Shown here: one piece after another, positions 25,262-41,954 of the stretch | How positions within the stretch are numbered: position 1 is the stretch's first letter | How the letters are laid out: each line of letters begins with the position of its first letter | Origin: Acidobacteriaceae bacterium | GTDB taxonomy: Bacteria; Acidobacteriota; Terriglobia; Terriglobales; Acidobacteriaceae | NCBI GenBank assembly: GCA_025462735.1 | Contig: JAOAPC010000008.1 | Span: forward strand, 186,001 to 250,000 | Reading direction: 5' to 3' | Length of the DNA: 64,000 nt | Position numbers and translations under genes: made by a program | The notes under the pieces: model-generated | Database searches by the model: none | The model's input: the letters and a program-made list of their open reading frames with translations, nothing else | What the model was told of the DNA's origin: nothing

Positions 25262-28200
25262 GTGAAATTCGTCAGTATTTCCGTTGTCAGGCGTTCAGCT
25301 CTTTCTATCGGAATAGGCCTGTCGATTGGCCTCTCGCTCTTCGCACAAACACAGCAGCAGACTCGGGTTTCACAATCCGAGTTAGCGCGTCAGAATATGG
25401 CGCAAGTTGCCGCATCAGTCGGTCAGATCCTTACGATTCTTCACAGAGATCCCGGACTGATGGTCGAACTGAAACGCTGGATTGCGAAGGATGCCACTGA
25501 CCACGGCCAACTGGTTTCTGAATCCGATCTGACGGACGAAGCGATTCTAGATCGCCTGGAAAATGACATCAGCTTCCGTTCTGAAGCAACTGGGCTGCTG
25601 CAGAAGTATGGATACCTGCAACCTAATGTGAACCCTGACTCGGTGCTGGCCAAAGAGCAGGAATTGCTCATGCGCGAGCGGGTGAGATGGGTTGCGCAAC
25701 AGGAAGAGCAGGATCGGGCAAGGTCGCAAAACCAGAGAGCAGCGCAGCAGCGTCGAGCGTGCGATCAAGACGGCAACTGCCCTCGGCAAAACGCAACTTC
25801 CTCCCGTCAGACCTTGCCGCAGCAGCAGCAGCCCGGAGAGAATCAGTTTCCCGCACAGGGCCCAGAGGAGGAGACGCTGCCTTCCAATCCTTCGATCAGG
25901 CCTTCCACGCCGGCACCGCAAAAACCCAACACTGACTTTACTCAACTCATGAGAACCAGTGGCGAAGATCCGTTGCTGGCGGAATCATCCGGCGGCGCAA
26001 CATTCGGTAATTCTTCCTCGTACGGATTAGATTCGGCGGTGGCGCCGGACCAAGATGTTTCGGGCGCAAGCGCTGGAAGGCGGGGGCGCGATCGGGGCGC
26101 GGGTGACACAGAGTTTGCAGACTTGTCATTGAATTCTGATTTTGCGGATGACAACTTAAACCCATTTTCGAGCAGTGAACGTTCCGTCACCAGTTCCTCT
26201 GCCACGGGATCGAGTGATGTGGGAAGTAGAGCGACAACTTACGACGCGATGGGAATTAGCAGCAGGAGTTCAACGAACGATAGATGGCGCAGAGATAGAG
26301 AATCGTTAACGCCAGGCCAGCGGCTCCTACGCCGGCGAAATCCTTACAATGAGATTCCTTCTCTGTACGACATGTATCTGCAAGCCGCAGCACGGCCACC
26401 AGCCGTCGATCGATTTGGCATGCAGGTTTTCGAGAACGGCACCCGCGACATGCAGATGATTCCGATGGATCTCCCGGTTGGCCCCGAGTACGTCTTGGGG
26501 CCGGGAGACGGACTGTCGGTCGATTTGTGGGGCGGAGTCTCGCGGCGCTTCTATCGCGTGGTTGACCGCGAGGGACGAGTCAGTCTGCCGGAGGTGGGTC
26601 CGCTTCTCGTGGCAGGAAAGTCATTGGCAGAAGTGCAGGAGTCTTTCCAAAAAACATTGCGCACTCAGTTCCGCGATGTTTCCGCCGATGTATCACTTTC
26701 ACGATTGCGGACGGTCCGAGTCTATGTCGTTGGCGATGTGCGGCGGCCTGGAGCGTACGACGTCAGCTCGCTGTCTACTCCGCTGAACGCACTGTTTGCA
26801 GCGGGAGGGCCGACCGGTCGCGGTTCTCTACGAGTTCTCAAGCACTTCCGTGGGAACCAGCTCGTGCAGGATGTCGACGTATACGACCTGCTTCTGCATG
26901 GCGTAAAGGGCGACATGCAACGGCTCGAAAACGGTGACTCAGTCCTGGTGCCACCGCTGGGGCCGGAGATCACAATCGAGGGAATGGTGCGGCGCCCGGC
27001 GGTTTATGAGCAGAAGAGTGAAAAATCGCTGGCCGATGCATTTGCTTTAGCTGGCGGATTACTTCCGTCCGCCATGTTGCAGCACGTCGAAGTGCAGCGA
27101 GTCGTTGCACACGACAAGCACACCATGCTTAGCTTCGACATCCCGCAGGATGATCCGTCTGACACCATCACTAAACAGCTTGACTCCTTCCGGATCCAGG
27201 ATGGGGACAAGATTCGCGTTTTCCCCATCGCTCCGTACGCACAGGATGCGGTGTACCTGGAGGGCCATGTAATCCGGCCAGGAAAGTATTCCTATCGGCA
27301 AGGCATGCGCGTAACTGACATACTCAGTTCCTACAAAGACCTTCTGCCAGAACCGGCGCTCCAATATGCCGAAATCATTCGTCTCAGCGAGCCGGATTTC
27401 CGTCCCACGGTTCAGAGCTTCAACATAGAACAGGCGTTGGCCGATCCAAAAAAGGCCCCGGAATTAAAGCGTCTAGACACAGTCCAAATTTTCGGACGCT
27501 ATGATTTCGAAGATCCGCCGAGTGTCTCGGTGTGGGGTGATGTGCGCGCCCCTGGAACTTACCCGACTTCCGGCGATGTTCATATCAGCGATGCTATCCA
27601 CCTGGCCGGCGGCCTTGAGCCTGACGCCGCGTCCGAGGACGCGCAGGTGTTTCGCTATATGCCGGATAGCACTTTGAAAATTCTCAACGTGAAGTTGAGC
27701 GGCGCACTGCAGGGGAATCCCCAGGACAATGTCGTTTTGAGTTCGCGGGACCGTGTGCTGGTGCACAAGAATCCTGCGGCGGTCGATCCTGCCACGGTTT
27801 CCGTGAAAGGCGAAGTAGAGCATCCCGGACGCTATCCGCTTACCGCAGACATGCGGATCTCTGATTTGATACGCGTAGCCGGTGGCTTGAAGCAGAGCGC
27901 TGACACAAACAGTGCCGACCTTACGCATTACTACTGGAAAGACGATAAGCAAGTGCTCGGCAAGCAGGAGGATGTCTTGCTGGCCGACGCAATGCTCGGC
28001 AACCCCGGCAAAAATCCTGAGTTGAACAACGGTGACGTGCTTGCCATCCGACAGGTTCCGGGTTGGACCGATTTAGGGGCTTCCATCTCATTACGCGGAG
28101 AAGTAACTCATCCGGGCAGTTACGGGATTCGTCCTGGGGAGCGTCTCAGTTCTGTATTGTTGCGAGCAGGAGGTTTTGGCCCAGGAGCCTATCCTTACGG

Positions 28201-28840
28201 AGCAGTGCTCATGCGGCCCGAAGTGCAGAAACTCGAGCAGCGGTCGTACGGAGAATTGGTCCAGCGCGTACGGGAACAGCAAGCCACGCTGAAGTTGACC
28301 GCTACCAGCGCTAGTGATCCCGATCAAAGGATTTCCGCGGAATCAGCGTTCGTTCAGTGGCAGACGACATTGGAAAACCTGATGAGCAGCCCGCCCACTG
28401 GCCGCGTGAGCATCCAGATTTCTTCGAACATCAAAACCTGGGCTAACGGTCCGCGTGACGTCCCAGTGCGCGCAGGAGACATTCTCGTGGTTCCGAAACG
28501 CCCCAGCTACGTTCTGGTGCAGGGGCAAGTGTACGGGCCGACTGCGGTCGCCTATCGTCCCGGCAGAAGCGCCAACTGGTATCTGACTCAGGCCGGTGGA
28601 ACGACCAATATGGCGAACAAACGCGCCATTTTCGTAGTTCGGGCGGACGGGACTGTGATCGGGAGCCACAGCTCGTTCTGGCTGTCGGGCAGTGCTATGA
28701 GTGTGGCGCTGCAGCCGGGAGACATGGTTGTGGCGCCGGAGAAGGCGCTGGGTGGGCCGCCAATCTGGAAGACCTTGTTCCAGAACGCGCAAGTTCTGAG
28801 CTCGATCACCACCAGCGCGATCCTTGCCGCCCACTACTGA
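25262..28840 (+). CDS. Giant SLBB-repeat polysaccharide export protein (Wza-like)
   Basis: Outer-membrane/periplasmic export protein, 1192 residues, about three times a classical Wza. Signal peptide residues 1-29 (ending SLFAQ). Residues about 40-400 are a helical then low-complexity, probably disordered, region rich in Gln, Ser, Arg and Asp. A Poly_export domain starts near residue 408 (PEYVLGPGDGLSVDLWG). Then come seven SLBB modules starting near residues 485, 569, 663, 754, 845, 941 and 1083, each with the pattern xGxVxxPGxY and an xxAGG end; the third and seventh are the most divergent. GTG start at 25262. First gene of the locus; should form or line the export channel with the Wzi-like and GumC-like partners downstream. 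Confidence 0.9.
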   Translation: MKFVSISVVRRSALSIGIGLSIGLSLFAQTQQQTRVSQSELARQNMAQVAASVGQILTILHRDPGLMVELKRWIAKDATDHGQLVSESDLTDEAILDRLENDISFRSEATGLLQKYGYLQPNVNPDSVLAKEQELLMRERVRWVAQQEEQDRARSQNQRAAQQRRACDQDGNCPRQNATSSRQTLPQQQQPGENQFPAQGPEEETLPSNPSIRPSTPAPQKPNTDFTQLMRTSGEDPLLAESSGGATFGNSSSYGLDSAVAPDQDVSGASAGRRGRDRGAGDTEFADLSLNSDFADDNLNPFSSSERSVTSSSATGSSDVGSRATTYDAMGISSRSSTNDRWRRDRESLTPGQRLLRRRNPYNEIPSLYDMYLQAAARPPAVDRFGMQVFENGTRDMQMIPMDLPVGPEYVLGPGDGLSVDLWGGVSRRFYRVVDREGRVSLPEVGPLLVAGKSLAEVQESFQKTLRTQFRDVSADVSLSRLRTVRVYVVGDVRRPGAYDVSSLSTPLNALFAAGGPTGRGSLRVLKHFRGNQLVQDVDVYDLLLHGVKGDMQRLENGDSVLVPPLGPEITIEGMVRRPAVYEQKSEKSLADAFALAGGLLPSAMLQHVEVQRVVAHDKHTMLSFDIPQDDPSDTITKQLDSFRIQDGDKIRVFPIAPYAQDAVYLEGHVIRPGKYSYRQGMRVTDILSSYKDLLPEPALQYAEIIRLSEPDFRPTVQSFNIEQALADPKKAPELKRLDTVQIFGRYDFEDPPSVSVWGDVRAPGTYPTSGDVHISDAIHLAGGLEPDAASEDAQVFRYMPDSTLKILNVKLSGALQGNPQDNVVLSSRDRVLVHKNPAAVDPATVSVKGEVEHPGRYPLTADMRISDLIRVAGGLKQSADTNSADLTHYYWKDDKQVLGKQEDVLLADAMLGNPGKNPELNNGDVLAIRQVPGWTDLGASISLRGEVTHPGSYGIRPGERLSSVLLRAGGFGPGAYPYGAVLMRPEVQKLEQRSYGELVQRVREQQATLKLTATSASDPDQRISAESAFVQWQTTLENLMSSPPTGRVSIQISSNIKTWANGPRDVPVRAGDILVVPKRPSYVLVQGQVYGPTAVAYRPGRSANWYLTQAGGTTNMANKRAIFVVRADGTVIGSHSSFWLSGSAMSVALQPGDMVVAPEKALGGPPIWKTLFQNAQVLSSITTSAILAAHY

Positions 28841-28847
28841 GGACATT

Positions 28848-31388
28848 TTGTTAGTCAGCCGGTTTCCGAGGTGCGTGCAATGCCTGTTGCTGGCGAGTGC
28901 AGTCACGGCGTTCGGGCAGTCGACAAGCCCATCGCACTCGGGCGATGCTGGATCCAACGCGCCGGGCCAGCAGAACAGCAGCGGATCTCCATCCGATTCC
29001 GGGGCTGTTCCCGACAACCCTCAGCCGGACGATTCTGAAAACAAGCTCGTAATACTGCCACGGCAACTTCTGCGGGATCAGATCGGTATGTGGACAAGTC
29101 CTGCCAGACTGCGACTGCCGGACGCAACCTGGCTGGTTCCGTTAGGGGGATTTACGGCGGCGCTGTTCGCCACAGACACCGACGTGAGCCGGCACCTTTC
29201 CACCGCACCAAATACGCTCTTACGCTATCGTCACATTTCAGACTACGGCGTGTATTCAATGGCAGGCGGAGCCGGGGGGCTCTATCTATTAGGTCTGATG
29301 ACACACAACGATCACCAGCGGGAGACGGGCTTCCTGAGCGGGGAAGCCGCCCTCGATGGCCTAGCGGCCGTGGAAGCTATTAAGTTCGCTACAGGCAGGG
29401 AGCGGCCATTTCAGGACAACGCCAGTGGAAAATTCTGGCAGGGCGGAACTTCATTCCCGTCTGAGCACTCCGCTCTCTCTTGGTCGATCGCCGGAATCGT
29501 AGCTCACGAGTATCCGAGCCCGTTTACGAAATTTCTGTCGTACGGGGCAGCGACCGCAATCAGCGCGTCTCGGATTACCGCCAAGCAACACTTCCCCTCA
29601 GACGTCCTGGTTGGCGCGGCTATTGGATATCTGACCAGCGAGTACGTTTACCGGCACCATCACGATCCAGAGTTGCGGGGTGGAGGCTGGGAACTACCAG
29701 CCGTCCGGCCAGAGCCCCCGTCACACTGGGAGCCGAACCATATGGGCTCGCCGTACGTGCCCTTGGACACTTGGATTTACCCCGCGCTGGATCGCTTGGC
29801 AGCGCTCGGGTATGTGAACAGCGCCACTACCGGCATGCGGCCATGGACTCGGTTGGAGTGCGCCCGGCAAATAGAAGAGGCCTCGGAGCGGATATCGGAC
29901 GACGAGGAAGGCCCGGGTGAAGCGGCCCGCCTCTACCAGAACCTGCAGAGCGAGTTCAGCCATGAAGTGAGTTTGCTTAGCGGCGGAGAAAACGGTGAGG
30001 TCCGCGTAGAGTCGGTGTATTCCCGCTCTACTGAGATCGTGGGCAAGCCGCTCACCGACGGCTATCACTTCGGACAGACCGTAATTAATGACTATGGCAG
30101 GCCCGAAGAACAAGGCTTTAATAATGTTTCGGGCTTGTCGGGATGGGCTGCCGCTGGTCCATTCGCGGCATATGTAAGAGCTGAATACCAGCGTTCCCCA
30201 TCGGCCTCTGCTTTTCCTCTGACTGCGCGCGAAGCCATCTCTCAAGCAGACTTCGGGGGTTCTATTGTCCGTCCGCCATTCCCCGTACCATCGGGCACGC
30301 CGACACCATCGCTGAGTCGGGCGCATCTCTTGGATTCGTACGTAGCAATGAACCTCTCCGATTGGCAGCTTTCTTACGGAAAGCAGAGCTTGTGGTGGGG
30401 ACCCGATGCTGGTGGAGCATTGATGTTAAGCGATAACGCCGAGCCACTGAGGATGTTCCGAATCAACCGGGTTACGCCTCTCAAGCTTCCCGGGTTTCTA
30501 GGCCTGCTGGGACCGACGCGAGTAGAGTTCTTTATCGGGCAGTATGCCGGGTACAATTTTGTCTTCACACCTAAGGGACTCATTGGCGGATATGACCGGT
30601 CATTGAGTCCGGAGCCAATTGTGCACGGCGAGAGACTCAGCTTCAAGCCAACGACCAATCTCGAAATCGGCCTTTCCCGGACCACGGATTACGGCGGACC
30701 AAATTACCCTTTGACCTTGCATACATTCTTCCGAAGCGCATTTTCAACCAGCAATACCATACCCGGCGCGCCGAACAAGCCAGGTTCGCGCCGCTCTGGT
30801 ATGGACTTTAACTATCGAGTACCGGGTTTCAGGAATGCGTTGACTTTGTATGCCGAGGGCATGGCTGAGCACAACGAGATCACCCCGCTTCTCGGCCCTG
30901 ACGTTGCAGCGTGGCTTGCAGGTATCTATGTTCCCCGATTACCAGTTCGGAAAATGGACTTGCGGGTGGAAGGCGTTTATACGGACCCGCCAATTGGCGG
31001 AAACGTAGGCCATGGCTTCTTTTATTATGATCCGACCTGGATCACTGGATATCAGAACTCCGGCCATTTGATGGGAAATTGGGTAGGTCGCCAAGGCCAG
31101 GGGGTGCAAGCCTGGACCACCTATTGGTTCAACCCGCGTGACAAACTTCAGTTCGGGTTCAGGCATCAGAAAGTCAGTCACCAGTTCATTCCCAACGGCG
31201 GTACGGTGAGTGATGCCAGTGTCCGGGCGGAAGTTTGGAGACGGTCCATCCTGAGCCTCTCGGCCATGGTTCAGTACGAAGCCTGGACGTTCCCGGTAAT
31301 CACGCCCAACAGGCAGTCGAATGTGACGTCGTCGGTAGAAGTGTCTTTCTGGCCGAAGAGCATTGTGAGCAGGACTCCGAGTCAATAG
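28848..31388 (+). CDS. PAP2 phosphatase fused to Wzi-like capsule-assembly barrel
   Basis: 846 residues from the TTG at 28848, which has GAGGA six bases upstream; a TTG at 28824 is also in frame. Signal peptide to about residue 24 (AVTAFGQ). Residues about 70-285 form a PAP2 acid-phosphatase domain with all three motifs: KFATGRERP, FPSEHSALSW and SRITAKQHFPSDV. From about residue 305 a Wzi/CapA-type domain follows (DTWIYPALDRLAALGYV, then YGKQSLWWGPDAGGALMLSDN and FFIGQYAGYNF), ending in a barrel whose last residues are hydrophobic. PAP2 enzymes dephosphorylate polyprenyl pyrophosphate; Wzi anchors capsule at the surface. Overlaps nothing and follows the export gene by 7 bases. Confidence 0.88.
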   Translation: MLVSRFPRCVQCLLLASAVTAFGQSTSPSHSGDAGSNAPGQQNSSGSPSDSGAVPDNPQPDDSENKLVILPRQLLRDQIGMWTSPARLRLPDATWLVPLGGFTAALFATDTDVSRHLSTAPNTLLRYRHISDYGVYSMAGGAGGLYLLGLMTHNDHQRETGFLSGEAALDGLAAVEAIKFATGRERPFQDNASGKFWQGGTSFPSEHSALSWSIAGIVAHEYPSPFTKFLSYGAATAISASRITAKQHFPSDVLVGAAIGYLTSEYVYRHHHDPELRGGGWELPAVRPEPPSHWEPNHMGSPYVPLDTWIYPALDRLAALGYVNSATTGMRPWTRLECARQIEEASERISDDEEGPGEAARLYQNLQSEFSHEVSLLSGGENGEVRVESVYSRSTEIVGKPLTDGYHFGQTVINDYGRPEEQGFNNVSGLSGWAAAGPFAAYVRAEYQRSPSASAFPLTAREAISQADFGGSIVRPPFPVPSGTPTPSLSRAHLLDSYVAMNLSDWQLSYGKQSLWWGPDAGGALMLSDNAEPLRMFRINRVTPLKLPGFLGLLGPTRVEFFIGQYAGYNFVFTPKGLIGGYDRSLSPEPIVHGERLSFKPTTNLEIGLSRTTDYGGPNYPLTLHTFFRSAFSTSNTIPGAPNKPGSRRSGMDFNYRVPGFRNALTLYAEGMAEHNEITPLLGPDVAAWLAGIYVPRLPVRKMDLRVEGVYTDPPIGGNVGHGFFYYDPTWITGYQNSGHLMGNWVGRQGQGVQAWTTYWFNPRDKLQFGFRHQKVSHQFIPNGGTVSDASVRAEVWRRSILSLSAMVQYEAWTFPVITPNRQSNVTSSVEVSFWPKSIVSRTPSQ

Positions 31389-31426: not shown

Positions 31427-32845
31427 ATGGCGATAAGAGAAATTGCGAAGCGCGACACCAGATTCACCGAGCCTGATCTCGACCAAGAAATTATTGTCGA
31501 GTCAGACGTGACGGTTGGTCGCGCCCGAACCATTGAACGACTTACGACCCTCTGGCAGCAAAGAAATTTTATGGCTCGCTGCGCCGCTGTGGGCCTGCTT
31601 CTGTCGGTCATTGTCGCTTTCCTGCTTCCCGTGCGCTTCACCTCCACCACGCGTCTAATGCCGCCAGATCAGGCAGGAGGATTGGCGTCGATGTTGGCGA
31701 CCCTGGGCAAAGGCGGCTCTGGTTCAGGTTCAGGGCCTGACCTCGGAGTTCTCGGCGGCGAACTGTTCGGCCTGCGAACCACAAGCGACCTGTTCGTGGG
31801 AGTTCTGCAGAGCCGGACAATTGAAGACGATCTCATCAACAAATTTGACCTTCGCAAAGTCTATGGCGTTCGCCGCATGGAAGATGCGCGCAAGAAGTTG
31901 GCAAGTCGGACCGATATCACTTCCGAGCGCAAGAGTGGAATCATCACCGTCAAGGTCAGTGACCGCAGCTCCAAACGTGCGGCATCCCTGGCAAAAGAAT
32001 ACGTAGCCGGGTTGGACCGAATCGTGGTCACATTGAATACTTCCTCAGCCCACAAAGAGAGGGTGTTCCTCGAGCAACGGTTGGCAGAAGTGCAGCAGGA
32101 CCTGGAAAAATCAGAAAAGAACTTCAGCGAATTTGCCAGCAAGCACAGCACTATCGACATCAAGGAACAAGGGAAAGCCATGATCGGCGCGGCCGCCGAC
32201 CTGGAAGGCCAACTGATCGCGACCCAGACGGAACTGCAAGGACTTCGCCAGATTTACACCGAGAACAATGTGCGCGTGCGGTCGCTGCAGGCGCGAGTAA
32301 ATGAACTTCAAAAGCAATTAAAAAATCTTGGCGGCAAAGACGAGTCATCCAACAGTTCCGCTTCACTACAGACCGAAGACCTATATCCCTCAATTCGCAA
32401 GCTGCCTATTTTAGGCGTGACATATGCCGATCTCTTTCGACAAGGGAAAGTAGAAGAAGCGATTTTCGAAGCCCTTACGAGGGAATACGAAATGGCCAAA
32501 GTCGAAGAGGCCCGCGAGATCCCCAGCGTCAAGGTATTGGACGAAGGAGACGTGCCCGAAACAAAATCTTTTCCACCAAGAATGCTCTTGATCGGGTTAG
32601 GCGTATTCCTTTTTGTTGCCGGCGGCTGCCTCTGGACACTGTTAAATGCCCGTTGGCAGGAAATTGACTCGCAGCATCCGGGCAAACTGCTCGCCCTGGA
32701 TGTTTTCCAAGTTCTTCGAAATGCACCCGGAATTTCGCGCATTCACGCCTTCCAAGGTAATGGTTCCGTGTCCAGTTTTCGCTCTGAGGTTCAACGCTCC
32801 TCGCACGAAGAGACCGCGGAAGAGCCTCGCGATACCGGCACGTAA
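31427..32845 (+). CDS. Polysaccharide chain-length determinant (GumC/Wzz family)
   Basis: 472 residues. A cytoplasmic N-terminus (about 1-50), a first membrane segment (CAAVGLLLSVIVAFLLPVRF, about 48-67), a large periplasmic part with long coiled coils (about 205-300: ERVFLEQRLAEVQQDLEKSEKN, ELQGLRQIY), the proline-containing motif before the second segment, and a second membrane helix (MLLIGLGVFLFVAGGCLWTL, about 386-405). The C-terminal tail has no tyrosine-kinase domain and no tyrosine cluster, so any BY-kinase would have to be encoded elsewhere. Controls export and length of the polymer together with the SLBB protein. Confidence 0.9.
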   Translation: MAIREIAKRDTRFTEPDLDQEIIVESDVTVGRARTIERLTTLWQQRNFMARCAAVGLLLSVIVAFLLPVRFTSTTRLMPPDQAGGLASMLATLGKGGSGSGSGPDLGVLGGELFGLRTTSDLFVGVLQSRTIEDDLINKFDLRKVYGVRRMEDARKKLASRTDITSERKSGIITVKVSDRSSKRAASLAKEYVAGLDRIVVTLNTSSAHKERVFLEQRLAEVQQDLEKSEKNFSEFASKHSTIDIKEQGKAMIGAAADLEGQLIATQTELQGLRQIYTENNVRVRSLQARVNELQKQLKNLGGKDESSNSSASLQTEDLYPSIRKLPILGVTYADLFRQGKVEEAIFEALTREYEMAKVEEAREIPSVKVLDEGDVPETKSFPPRMLLIGLGVFLFVAGGCLWTLLNARWQEIDSQHPGKLLALDVFQVLRNAPGISRIHAFQGNGSVSSFRSEVQRSSHEETAEEPRDTGT

Positions 32846-32902: not shown

Positions 32903-34234
32903 TTGCCTCTGCTGAACCCAACTCGACGAAAGCTGATTGGCAATATGTTCTGGCTCTACATGCTACAAGGCCTGAACTATGTCATTCCTCTGGCGGTGTT
33001 GCCTTACCTGTTGCGGGTGTTGGGAGTTGAGCGTTACGGGCTTGTCGCATTCGCTCAGGCATTCGCGCAATATTTCGTACTCGTCACTGATTATGGGTTC
33101 AACCTATCGGCGACCAAGCAGATCGCAATAATCCGTCGCGACCGCGAGCGTGTCTCACGCCTCTTCTGGTGCGTGGTTCTCATCAAGCTGGCACTCATGC
33201 TGCTTGGTGCATTGGTGACCGCCTGCACAGTGTTGATGGTTCCGCGATTTCGTGCCGATGCCGGGCTCTATGCAATCGCATATCTGGCTGTTTTAGGAAG
33301 CGTTTTTTTCCCTACTTGGCTCTTTCAAGGGATGGAACAAATGCGGTACATCTCCGTGGTCAGCGGCGGAGCCAAGCTCTTTTCGGCGTTGATGCTCTTC
33401 GTTTTAGTCCATCAAAGGTCGGATTATGTACTTGCACTCGCAATCCAATCTGGCGGTTTGCTCTTAGCGGGAGTTGCAGGATTATGGATCGCAATTAGGC
33501 ATTTCAGAATCTCTTACTCGCAGCCCTCGAAGAACGAACTCGTACAGACATTGCGCGACGGCTGGCATCTGTTTGTGTCAAATGCTGCCGCTGCGCTCTA
33601 CGCGACGAGCTATGTGTTTTTCGTCGGATTGCTGGCCGGGAACACTCAAGCTGGCTATTACAGTGCGGCAGAGAAAATAGTGAGAGGCATTCAGGGAACG
33701 CTGGGCCCTATGACTGGAGCAATCTACCCGCATGTGAGCGAATTGGCCGCAAAGTCTGGTGAAATGGCATTGTCCTTTATTCGGAAAATTCTCGTATGGA
33801 TCGCTTTGGTTTCATTCATTCCCTCGGCTGCCCTGCTCTTGTTTGCGCGGCCTATCACTCGGACTCTGTTCGGGAATGCCGCTGACGGCATTGTTGCACC
33901 ACTAAGTTGGACTGCTGCGTTGCCGTTTGTGGTCGCCATAAGTGCAGTCTTCGCTATTCAAACGATGATTCCATTTGGTTTAGAAAAACAGCTGAGCCGC
34001 ATTTACGTGGTGGCAGGATTGGGAAGCCTGATCTTCTGTTTGCCGCTTATCCATTATTTCGGTGCCGCAGGAGCCGGAGCTGGGGTTCTGGTCGTCGAGA
34101 CCAGTGTAGTTCTGGCCATGTGGAGAGTCCTCACCGCTCACGGCCTCCATTTCGGGCGTAGAGGCACGGTACTGGCAGGAATCGCAGGCGCTAGTCCGGG
34201 AGCGAAGGTTTCTCGAGATGTACTGTCCTGTTAG
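32903..34234 (+). CDS. Oligosaccharide flippase (Wzx, polysaccharide transporter family)
   Basis: 443 residues with about twelve membrane helices; it moves the lipid-linked repeat unit across the inner membrane. The N-terminal stretch MFWLYMLQGLNYVIPLAVLPYLLRVLG and the motifs RYGLVAFAQAFAQY and DYGFNLSATKQIA are the hallmark of the Polysacc_synt family. TTG start at 32903 preceded by AAAGGAAC. The first Met codon inside (32945) would cut into the first helix, so the TTG is preferred. Conserved Arg and Lys lining residues cannot be checked without an alignment. Confidence 0.9.
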   Translation: MPLLNPTRRKLIGNMFWLYMLQGLNYVIPLAVLPYLLRVLGVERYGLVAFAQAFAQYFVLVTDYGFNLSATKQIAIIRRDRERVSRLFWCVVLIKLALMLLGALVTACTVLMVPRFRADAGLYAIAYLAVLGSVFFPTWLFQGMEQMRYISVVSGGAKLFSALMLFVLVHQRSDYVLALAIQSGGLLLAGVAGLWIAIRHFRISYSQPSKNELVQTLRDGWHLFVSNAAAALYATSYVFFVGLLAGNTQAGYYSAAEKIVRGIQGTLGPMTGAIYPHVSELAAKSGEMALSFIRKILVWIALVSFIPSAALLLFARPITRTLFGNAADGIVAPLSWTAALPFVVAISAVFAIQTMIPFGLEKQLSRIYVVAGLGSLIFCLPLIHYFGAAGAGAGVLVVETSVVLAMWRVLTAHGLHFGRRGTVLAGIAGASPGAKVSRDVLSC

Positions 34235-34245
34235 AGCGAGCGCTG

Positions 34246-35190
34246 GTGATTGTCGCGATGGCGCTGGAGAGAATCATGGGTAGCGTGTACCGCGGCTGGA
34301 ACTCTCTTAGGTCATTTGGGCCACGTTACACGTTTTGGCGGCTGAGGAAAGTCGTCTTTGGCGGGCAGTTAAGGAAAGGCGCGTTTAGCGGTCGCCGACT
34401 TCTGTCGAATTTTTGCGGCGCTGGACTCGAAATAGGCGGCCCCAGTCAATTTTTTCAGCCCGGGAGAGAATTCCCAATTTATTCAGTAGCCGAGAATATC
34501 GACAACGTCAATTACAGTGCGACGACCTTTTGGGAGGGTGCGCTAAACGAAGGCAGAAACTTTAGATATAACGCCAACAAAGCGCCTGGCCATCAGTTCA
34601 TTTGTGAAGCAAGCGATTTATCCGCTATCTCAGACTGCACGTACGACTTTGTTGCTTCTTGTCACACATTGGAACACTGTGCCAACCCCATTAAGTCCCT
34701 TACCGAGTGGCGGCGAGTGTTAAAAAGCAAAGGCTGGTTCGCCTTGGTTCTGCCTCACAAAGAAGGAACATTCGACCATCGCAGGAAGGTGACCGAGTTC
34801 GAACATTTGCTTGAAGATTATCGACACGGCGTCACCGAAGACGATACAACTCATTTTGCTGAAATATTAGCAATTCACGATTTGGCCCGAGATCCGGCAC
34901 AGAAATCAAGGCAGGGCTTCGAGAAATGGATTAGCGAAAACACCGTGACCAGGGGCGCTCATCATCATGTGTTTGATCCGGCGCTGGCAATCACGCTCGT
35001 CGACCACGCCGGCTTCGAACTGGTTAGTGCTGAGGCCTTGATGCCATTCCACATCTTTATCGTGGCTCAAAAATCATCTAAGCGCCGCGAAGAAAAAGAA
35101 CAAATACGTCTTCAGACATTGCGTGCCTGTTGCGAACGAAGCCCGTTCAAGTCCGATCGGGAGCGCGATCTATCGGAATCATTTGGTTGA
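34246..35190 (+). CDS. SAM-dependent methyltransferase of the exopolysaccharide locus
   Basis: 314 residues (GTG at 34246; an ATG at 34258 is nearly as good). The class I methyltransferase core is visible: GLEIGGPS (SAM-binding motif, about residue 63), FICEASDLSAI (acidic residue), and DFVASCHTLEHCANP (motif IV, about 140-155), followed by EWRRVLKSKGWFALVLPHKEGT. This resembles sugar- or lipid-linked glycan methyltransferases. It ends inside the convergent polymerase gene (44-base tail overlap). Likely adds a methyl group to the repeat unit; acceptor position unknown. Confidence 0.82.
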   Translation: MIVAMALERIMGSVYRGWNSLRSFGPRYTFWRLRKVVFGGQLRKGAFSGRRLLSNFCGAGLEIGGPSQFFQPGREFPIYSVAENIDNVNYSATTFWEGALNEGRNFRYNANKAPGHQFICEASDLSAISDCTYDFVASCHTLEHCANPIKSLTEWRRVLKSKGWFALVLPHKEGTFDHRRKVTEFEHLLEDYRHGVTEDDTTHFAEILAIHDLARDPAQKSRQGFEKWISENTVTRGAHHHVFDPALAITLVDHAGFELVSAEALMPFHIFIVAQKSSKRREEKEQIRLQTLRACCERSPFKSDRERDLSESFG

Positions 35191-36523
35191 TCGGATTTTT
35201 CGGAACCTTCAATGCTGCTACGTTGCTGTGCCCAAATTTGCGCTGTACCTGAGATCCAGCGAGCAGAAACAGAAATGCCATGACCTTATAAGCGTTATGG
35301 GAGTCAACCATTAACATGTTAATTGCCAAGACGAATACCGCCATCGCACACGAGAGACCGATATTCGAAATCTTACGCAGAAGCACGATAAAGGCTATCG
35401 TACCCACGATGCCAGTCTCGCTAAGTACCCGGAGCCATCCGCCGTCCAGGGCGGGCGTCAGAGCTCCTGGACCAACACCAACAATCCAGGTGATCCATGA
35501 GCCCGCAAGCATGATTTTTATGACCTGCGCCCACTTGAAACCCCGCATATACCAGCTTGCGTCTACATCCTCCGGTGCGTCTTCGGGCGCACCGCCGGCT
35601 GCGAATCCAGTGAACTGCTTGTCGACAGGGATCCTGTCGTATAAGTCTCGGAAGCTCTGGAAATTCTGTTGTGAAAACAGCGCTGCAGATCGTTCTTTGA
35701 TGGGATTGGGAGTTGCAACAACAATTGACACCAGCAACCCGGACACGAAAGCGACCTTGAGGACAAAGCTCGTCCGATTTTTCGAATGCCGGTAAATGTA
35801 AATCAAGGTGAGGAGGCAATGAGCGAAAAGGGCGGTTCTGGAACCAGTGAAAAAAATGCATAGCGCGACCAGTGAGCACCAATACCAAAATTCGCTGGCT
35901 GTTTTGGTCGCAAAAACCAAAGCGGCGAATAACAAATTGAGAAGCGCTCCCATCTCCGCAGGATGGTTTGTTGACAGACCGAATGGCCGATCCAGTGCTG
36001 ATTCATATCCATCAGCGGTGAACCCGCCAATGACGCCGGCATATTGAAGGACAATAAAGGCGCAGTTAACAGCAATCAGCACCTTTACCAGCGAGATGAA
36101 ATTGTGTCGAGACTGTACCAGTGCCTTTCCCGCCCAGAAAAACACGAGATATTCGGCTAAGCGCAAGGAATAGAGAATATTAGAGTGACTTATATTTATT
36201 AGATTAGACAAGCAGAACACGCCCACAGCAAGGAGCGTTGCCGAAGGAATTGCTTCGATCGTAAACTCCATGTCCACGATCCAGCTACCAACCAGAAACG
36301 TGGCAACGGTTAGGAGGATTAAGTCGTCGAACCTTATTCCGGCAGTTTCATTTCGAAACCCAATAAGATTGATTTTTGGAATGAAGAACAAAAGCACGGG
36401 CCAAAGCGAGACCTTTGCAAGCAGCGTCGCGGGTTTTTTCAGAGATCGGTAGACGAAGTCTGCAACTCTTACAAAGGCGAAAATGGCCGCTTGGATTTGC
36501 TCTTCTTGCGCGTGTGAAGGCAC
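35147..36523 (-). CDS. O-antigen/exopolysaccharide polymerase (Wzy-like)
   Basis: 458 residues, ten or more membrane helices, with a large periplasmic loop between the later helices (about residues 275-365: KERSAALFSQQNFQSFRDL through SWITWIVGVGPG). The end of that loop, WIVGVGPGALTP, is the Wzy_C-type signature region. It joins repeat units at the reducing end on the periplasmic side. GTG start at 36523 on the minus strand. It is the only gene of the locus on this strand, and its 3' end overlaps the methyltransferase by 44 bases. Wzy proteins are poorly conserved, so the call rests on topology, loop and context. Confidence 0.8.
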   Translation of the reverse strand: MPSHAQEEQIQAAIFAFVRVADFVYRSLKKPATLLAKVSLWPVLLFFIPKINLIGFRNETAGIRFDDLILLTVATFLVGSWIVDMEFTIEAIPSATLLAVGVFCLSNLINISHSNILYSLRLAEYLVFFWAGKALVQSRHNFISLVKVLIAVNCAFIVLQYAGVIGGFTADGYESALDRPFGLSTNHPAEMGALLNLLFAALVFATKTASEFWYWCSLVALCIFFTGSRTALFAHCLLTLIYIYRHSKNRTSFVLKVAFVSGLLVSIVVATPNPIKERSAALFSQQNFQSFRDLYDRIPVDKQFTGFAAGGAPEDAPEDVDASWYMRGFKWAQVIKIMLAGSWITWIVGVGPGALTPALDGGWLRVLSETGIVGTIAFIVLLRKISNIGLSCAMAVFVLAINMLMVDSHNAYKVMAFLFLLAGSQVQRKFGHSNVAALKVPKNPINQMIPIDRAPDRT

Positions 36524-40559: not shown

Positions 40560-41954
40560 GTGATCCGCAGTCGTCTGAGCTATGCACGTTTTTACCTTAG
40601 AATTTTGACCTTGCTGTTGCCCGCCTTTGCCTATTTCATGGCAGTAAAAATCCGCTTCGGCATTAACTTTTTTCTTACGCGAACTTCTCCCGCAGGCCTG
40701 CCTTCGTACTGGGGCATCTTGCTGTTGACCACTGTGGTTTGGGCGATCGCCGCCGAAGAGGCCGGGCTGTGGAATGTCGAGCAACTGTATTCGCCGGGCG
40801 GAAAAAGCCGGCGCCTTCTTGAAGCATTATCGTTCACCTATGTGGTGGTGATGGCGGCGGGCTTCCTCTACAGAGGCGCCAGCTACTCGCGGACCGTGAT
40901 TGTCATCAGCGCGGGTGCTCTGTTTATTCTCGCAACGATTTCACGGATCGGGTTTCGGGTCGTCCTAGAGTTCCTGCGCAACCGCAACGGAAACGAAGTC
41001 AAAATTCTCTTGGTGGGAACAGACCGCTTCGCGCACCGCGTCGCGGCTTCACTGCAAAACGGTGAGGTCCTCCCTTGCAGGATAGCTGGCTTCGTCCGTC
41101 TTCCGGATCAGGAAATTGCGGTCGAAGGTCCAGTATACGAATCCGATCAGATACCGGTCTTCTCAAATGGCCACTCGATAGACGACATCATCATTGCCTT
41201 ACCTCCTAGCCGACTCGCCGACGTGCAAAAGATCACGCCTTCCTTGGAGAAACTTTGCGTGCCCACCCGGGTAGTCATTGATCTGGGGGAAGGAGTAGGA
41301 CTTCGCGAGCGCCTCATCGACCTGGGCGGGATCCACATGTTAGATCTGCGGCCGACGCTGGCTGAAAGCGGCCCTTATCTTTTTCAGAAGCGCATCTTCG
41401 ATATCCTTTTCTCGACGATTGTTCTGCTGCTCACCGCACCCCTAACCCTTCCCATCGCCTTAGCCATCAAGCTCACCAGCCGCGGGCCATTGTTTTTCAT
41501 TCAGGAGCGCGTTGGGCTCAACGGACGTGTATTCCGCATGATCAAATTTCGTACGATGAAACTGGGAAGTAAGCAAGAAGGGGACACCTATTGGACATCG
41601 GCGAACGATCCCCGCTGCACGTTGGTTGGGGCTTTTCTCCGCAAGATCAATCTGGACGAACTGCCGCAGTTCTTCAATGTCCTCATGGGTCATATGAGCA
41701 TCGTTGGGCCGCGGCCGGAGCGCCCGTATTTTGTGGAGAGGTTCCTCGAACAATTTGAAAGATATAACTCGCGGCACATGTTCAAGGTGGGAATTACCGG
41801 CTGGGCGCAAGTCAACGGCTGGCGAGGAGACACCTCAATCGCGAAGCGCGTGGAGTACGATCTGTATTATCTTCGCAATTGGAGCCTTACCTTTGATCTT
41901 CAAATCATCGTTATAACTTTGCTGCGGATGTTCTCCAGCAAAAATGCGTATTGA
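40560..41954 (+). CDS. Initiating polyprenyl-phosphate hexose-1-phosphate transferase
   Basis: 464 residues. The first half has four or so membrane helices and a Rossmann-like cytoplasmic region ([18 protein letters not shown]). The second half is the bacterial sugar-transferase domain: [19 protein letters not shown] (the reentrant membrane helix), [23 protein letters not shown] and [12 protein letters not shown]. This is the WcaJ/WbaP polytopic type that loads the first sugar-1-phosphate, commonly glucose or galactose, onto undecaprenyl phosphate. GTG at 40560. Last gene of the locus, 100 bases before tRNA-Leu. Confidence 0.92.

Follow-up and report, generated by a model that had tools for sequence, protein, structure and literature searches.

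According to an extract of a 2025 review (PMC12220298), it is not exactly known how Wzy-dependent capsules are retained on Gram-negative cells. The pairing of OPX exporters with Wzi-type outer-membrane barrels has been described (extract of PMC9603273), and for the Wzi protein of E. coli both the N-terminal helical bundle and the C terminus are placed in the periplasm (extract of PMC3791409). On the side of the PAP2 phosphatases, soluble versions arose from membrane forms (PMC12419801, in part), and since Pho18, a secreted PAP2 enzyme from soil, has phosphatase/phytase activity (PMC6355987, in part), a PAP2 enzyme that is not embedded in a membrane has precedent. We found no description of a PAP2-Wzi fusion in the literature searched; domain databases may list the architecture.

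The protein studied here is encoded in a stretch of 64,000 nucleotides of the genome of an Acidobacteriaceae bacterium from soil, in the following called the window, and the coordinates of its features are collected in Table 1. Its reading frame is uninterrupted from TTG 28824 to the stop at 31388, with alternative starts inside, including TTG 28848 and others further in. Pfam assigns residues 181-278 to PAP2 (PF01569, E 9.4e-19, 67.9 bits with a cut-off of 27.2) and residues 407-833 to Caps_assemb_Wzi (PF14052, E 5.8e-98, 328.9 bits), the latter match spanning profile positions 8-390 of 392 and so the full barrel. Both matches lie in one intact frame, which bears out the original prediction of a PAP2 and a Wzi-type domain in one chain. 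The gene is the sole Wzi match in its genome, and a PHROGs search gave no match.

Table 1. Features of the fusion gene and its neighbours (positions within the window)
Feature	Coordinates	Strand	Remarks
OPX protein, Poly_export and SLBB repeats	25262..28840	+	1192 aa; directly upstream, reaching as far as the start of the fusion
Whole fusion gene, with PAP2, putative Wzi plug and Wzi barrel	28824..31388	+	854 aa from TTG 28824
Signal-peptide-like N terminus	28845..28917	+	holds the window of highest hydropathy in the protein (1.45); putative cleavage site
Ser/Pro-rich linker in the fusion protein	after the signal-like N terminus, to about residue 74	+	
PAP2 domain, six-helix phosphatase core	29046..29691	+	Pfam; model of the stretch; PDB matches
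PAP2 motif 1, KFATGRERP	29382..29408	+	K187...R194 P195
PAP2 motif 2, FPSEHS	29454..29471	+	H215
PAP2 motif 3, SRITAKQHFPSD	29568..29603	+	R250, H256, D260
Putative helical plug in the Wzi part	29745..29963	+	common to 60 aligned Wzi frames; distant likeness to OmpM SLH domain
Wzi-type outer-membrane beta-barrel	30042..31322	+	PF14052 E 5.8e-98; E. coli Wzi 2ynk E 1.6e-11
Wzz-type polysaccharide co-polymerase (PCP)	31427..32845	+	PF02706 E 4.4e-6
Wzx-type flippase	32903..34234	+	PF01943 E 4.3e-53
Wzy/O-antigen-ligase-like protein (Wzy_C-type)	35147..36523	-	PF04932 E 3.9e-7, 30.4 bits, slightly below the cut-off of 31.7
Initiating sugar-phosphate transferase (Bac_transf)	40560..41954	+	PF02397 E 3e-68

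The expected Wzx/Wzy polysaccharide export gene set was found around the fusion gene, with OPX, PCP, Wzx, Wzy_C-like, GT2 and Bac_transf genes all present; a methyltransferase and four GT2 glycosyltransferases also lie downstream. A phosphodiester-forming enzyme was not seen in the scanned neighbourhood of the fusion gene, and no Wza_C domain was found in the OPX protein at E 0.1.

The distribution of the fusion was determined by several searches. Of 297 genomes from the phylum scanned with PF14052, 56 gave a match, in 46 of them over the cut-off, and a protein search of genomes gave 11 relatives of the fusion protein, all from Acidobacteria-type MAGs. Following removal of duplicates, fragments and weak matches with E above 1e-60, a set of 60 different Wzi frames was obtained, 27 of them (838-974 aa, Acidobacteriota) carrying PAP2 in the same frame and 33 being bare. 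One fused frame (L009), which is broken near its C-terminal end and contains unread bases, was kept in the 27 and excluded from the tree and structure alignments. Fused genes occurred in 15 of the 297 scanned genomes, all 15 belonging to the window's own family, from which 31 genomes were scanned. This is a conserved, lineage-restricted fusion of two known families.

Every PAP2 match in the Wzi loci sat inside a Wzi frame, and a profile of the fused PAP2 part detected no separate PAP2 gene beside the bare Wzi genes within the fetched stretches. Outside the window's family PAP2 was absent from the Wzi loci of nine genomes (ten loci checked: L040, L041, L086-L093), while for the remaining Wzi matches outside this family its absence was judged from frame length alone. 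Three plasmid records matched the fusion protein over the Wzi part only, none of them covering PAP2, and two scans of viral contigs gave no relative of the fusion protein. Longer PAP2 frames from other families (e.g. L117, 735 aa) were considered as another fusion and discarded, as their PAP2 part has a signal-like start of its own, towards the end of a GC-rich run-on frame.

A frameshift or mis-assembly joining two genes, which the original prediction had named as the finding that would speak against it, can be given a negligible probability. The same joint is present in 27 unique frames from many genomes, and dN/dS is low on both sides of it, with values of 0.04-0.16 for the PAP2 part, computable for 10 of the 13 pairs chosen, and 0.04-0.15 for the barrel. 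The PAP2 domain is constrained by purifying selection in all pairs measured.

The canonical PAP2 motifs are K-x6-RP, PSxH and SR-x5-H-x3-D. As predicted, all three are present in the window protein (KFATGRERP, PSEH and SRITAKQHFPSD) with all seven catalytic residues kept, the usual G of motif 2 being replaced by E. The same seven residues are kept in 19 of the 27 fused proteins, and the motif-1 Arg, the motif-2 Ser, the motif-3 Arg and the nucleophile His in all 27. The motif-1 Lys is lost in six proteins (L003, L006, L007, L010, L011 and L044), the motif-2 His in one (L008), and the motif-3 Asp is changed to Glu in one (L012). Loss of catalytic residues in homologues had likewise been named in advance as evidence against the prediction, and it was found in part: 8/27 homologues depart at one of the seven positions and the others are intact. 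For the 26 fused rows on the tree of the Wzi part the state of the motif-1 Lys needs at least 5 changes. Five of the pairs with a computable dN/dS include an altered protein, and the value for the PAP2 part is not raised in them (0.06-0.11). Catalysis may thus differ or be lost in some lineages, as judged from these residues.

The recurrent loss of the motif-1 Lys, the single loss of the motif-2 His and the low dN/dS in the altered pairs would all fit a PAP2 part that has ceased to be an enzyme in all or some of the proteins and acts beneath the barrel as a structural or partner-binding module, for example in docking to OPX. We consider this unlikely, given the majority of fused proteins, including the window protein, in which the catalytic set is complete, and the nucleophile His and the motif Arg residues, which all 27 retain.

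The topology of such a chain was raised as a question in the original prediction, with PAP2 enzymes acting at the inner membrane and Wzi sitting in the outer membrane. The fusion itself is real; the conflict is weakened, as it presumes a membrane-embedded PAP2 domain, which would be hard to assemble on an outer-membrane barrel. No 19-residue window of the PAP2 part of the window protein reaches a hydropathy of 1.6, and the same holds for 25 of the 27 fused proteins, the two exceptions reaching 1.61 and 1.62; the mean hydropathy of the fused PAP2 part is near zero. By the same measure PgpB, YbjG and LpxT of E. coli each contain four windows of at least 1.6, so that the number of membrane-spanning helices, judged from hydropathy windows only, is 0 in the fusion PAP2 versus 4 in each of these three proteins.

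The kin of the PAP2 part point in the same direction. Its family was found by profile in 62 of 199 genomes of the phylum, mostly as frames of 230-360 aa outside fusions, and 13 stand-alone loci that were read singly mostly have signal-like N termini. Within the fetched stretches of these 13 loci there was no match to a barrel, OPX or PCP. One stand-alone, signal-bearing relative (L080, E 4.5e-40) is encoded in the window's own genome. The stand-alone PAP2 relatives of the phylum are apparently secreted; examples are L080/L084 (9163-10086, - strand) and L125-L129. Several of them, such as L129, have a short C-terminal tail with an aromatic last residue, which could be a sign that these proteins too are associated with the outer membrane.

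The topological puzzle is largely resolved, because the PAP2 part is weakly hydrophobic and its kin are apparently secreted. The simplest arrangement would be a signal peptide, a soluble periplasmic PAP2 domain, a plug and a barrel following one export path, and with the N terminus of E. coli Wzi being periplasmic such an arrangement is plausible.

The original prediction had further suggested that the PAP2 part acts on a substrate other than the polyprenyl pyrophosphate of the inner membrane, and this gains support from the lack of membrane-grade hydropathy and from the signal-bearing stand-alone kin. Recycling of undecaprenyl pyrophosphate at the inner membrane in the classical way, provided for by the polysaccharide locus itself, would agree with membership of the PAP2 superfamily and with the Wzx/Wzy context. 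A weak likeness to undecaprenyl-diphosphatases was indeed found with the NCBIfam models (E 0.016), at 15.1 bits, which is far under the cut-offs of 229 and 250. Helices of membrane grade are missing from the PAP2 part, and its short link to an outer-membrane barrel should keep this domain away from the inner membrane. Recycling was rejected as the main reading on the missed NCBIfam cut-offs and the low hydropathy, and we regard it as very improbable. The window protein also scored only 12.3 bits against the NCBIfam PgpB model (cut-off 261) and 11 bits against the class A acid phosphatase model APhasePhoC (cut-off 430).

Structure prediction was carried out on the whole chain and on the PAP2 stretch. 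The whole-chain model, made from 11 rows, had a pLDDT of 34.5 and was unusable. The model of the PAP2 stretch reached a pLDDT of 68 and a pTM of 0.70, with the first 32 residues and the loop 120-135 poorly modelled. The closest folds to this model are bsPgpB (Z 16.1) and LpxE (Z 15.7), which are also among the smallest chains listed; the soluble PhoN/PhoC, which have the PAP2 fold in common with these two, follow at about 10.6 and vanadium haloperoxidases at about 10. Since the two closest folds are those of membrane enzymes, the argument for a soluble PAP2 domain rests on hydropathy and kin and not on the fold.

These fold matches, together with LpxE as the best sequence match among solved PAP2 structures (E 1.8e-6), would be in line with an outer-membrane lipid phosphatase, in which the tethered PAP2 domain acts in an LpxE-like manner on phosphatidate, PGP or lipid A phosphates of the inner leaflet and thereby tunes the polymer-binding surface. 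The matches span the generic catalytic core only, however, and the PAP2 helices are not membrane grade. Lipid A resides mainly in the outer leaflet, which also counts against this proposal. It is a possibility that we place on the unlikely side.

Our preferred reading, which we hold to be somewhat probable, is that the fusion is a Wzi-type outer-membrane protein, belonging to a locus for the export of exopolysaccharide or capsule and carrying a water-soluble periplasmic PAP2 phosphatase that acts on phosphomonoesters and not on the undecaprenyl pyrophosphate of the inner membrane. We infer the localisation, enzymatic activity and substrate of the PAP2 part as follows. Following Sec export the PAP2 domain would fold in the periplasm, and the C-terminal barrel would enter the outer membrane with the plug facing the periplasm. 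A link of about 20-25 residues would then hold the phosphatase just beneath the barrel and near the OPX exporter, where it would most likely strip phosphate from phosphomonoesters reaching the inner face of the outer membrane. As a first guess the substrate would be phosphate-bearing termini or substituents on the exported glycan, and as a second guess phospholipids of the inner leaflet. In a more specific version, which we consider doubtful, the tethered PAP2 domain would remove terminal or carrier-derived phosphate from the Wzx/Wzy polymer arriving via OPX, and thereby set release versus retention by the barrel. If true, this version would mean an enzymatic release/retention step at the outer membrane in Acidobacteriota.

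The neighbourhoods of fused and bare Wzi genes were compared in a survey that the original prediction had proposed. An OPX or PCP gene was found nearby in 22/26 fused loci versus 4/19 bare loci (Fisher p 3.7e-5, a value that overstates independence as the rows are related). This count was made on fetched flanks only and left out L008 (on a 3.3 kb contig), the duplicate L049 and 14 of the 33 bare Wzi genes with short flanks. The fused gene is immediately preceded by an OPX frame of the same strand in 10 of these 26 loci, including L009, where OPX is split over two frames. Some bare Wzi genes (L043, L052, L061 and L063) also have OPX/PCP beside them, and no PAP2 gene was detected in the stretches fetched there, so that such loci can do without the PAP2 part, which is optional.

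Mapping the fused state onto a tree of the Wzi part takes 4 changes, no fewer than 3 when judged by the starred branches, and a single fused clade was rejected (p-AU 4.8e-5). Fusion or splitting has therefore recurred: the PAP2 domain was acquired or dropped on more than one occasion, and the tree gives no direction. The Wzi proteins of the window's family fall into very distant groups on this tree, one of which comprises 25 bare rows. In this group no OPX/PCP match was found near any of the 11 members counted, and its proteins may do something other than retain a capsule. One genome with two intact Wzi genes also carries, at L077 7741-8169 (G155:C10), a 142-aa Wzi remnant that contains an in-frame TGA.

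Between the two domains, residues 308-380 form a segment that the original prediction had overlooked. It is conserved in the aligned Wzi frames and helical, the helices being taken from the poor whole-chain model only, and it occupies the position of the periplasmic plug of Wzi. The plug of E. coli Wzi aligns weakly at the same place (hhalign E 0.005, one pair). After RPW the fused proteins read TRxE in this segment, and the large bare clade mostly TRRS and similar. A plug profile of 33 rows matched SLH domains of OmpM-type chains at E 2.3e-5, 5e-4 and 5e-4, with no other convincing match, and Pfam SLH gave no match in any of the 33 members. We take the matched PDB chains to be OmpM, a type of tether in which a long coiled coil connects an N-terminal SLH domain with a barrel. 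A PDB code named in an extract of PMC10628300 agrees with this identity, and the same extract describes OmpM as absent from Gracilicutes. We read the segment as the probable Wzi plug, with a possible distant kinship to SLH domains as far as profile comparison suggests. An SLH-like outer-membrane tether in Acidobacteriota would then be possible, and would deserve attention given that OmpM has been called absent from Gracilicutes.

In this one family of Acidobacteriota, a PAP2 family that is found across the phylum and is apparently secreted has been joined to an outer-membrane barrel. A retention barrel with its own phosphatase makes this lineage a tangible case for studying whether retention involves phosphate chemistry at the outer membrane, and the related genomes supply natural controls in the form of fused, bare and catalytically altered versions.

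Compared with known systems, the fusion shares the six-helix PAP2 fold with the compact lipid phosphatases bsPgpB and LpxE, which differ from it in being integral membrane proteins, the helices of the fused PAP2 domain being weakly hydrophobic. With PhoN/PhoC, matched by fold as given above, and with Pho18 it has in common a PAP2 part that would not be embedded; those are free proteins without an outer-membrane barrel, and motif 2 of the fusion reads PSEH instead of PSGH. The stand-alone PAP2 proteins of Acidobacteriota (e.g. L080) belong to the same profile family, with similar motifs, a similar N-terminal stretch before the first helix and a signal-like N terminus, but have no barrel, and their 13 stretches hold no OPX, PCP or Wzi match. 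Another known Wzi-like barrel likewise has an extra domain in its chain, although both this domain and its context differ from those of the fusion. The Wzi lectin of the E. coli/Klebsiella group 1 capsules (2ynk) shares the PF14052 barrel, the OPX/PCP neighbours and probably the helical segment on the N-terminal side of the barrel, whereas the fusion has a much longer chain, extended at its N terminus by a PAP2 domain of about 215 aa.
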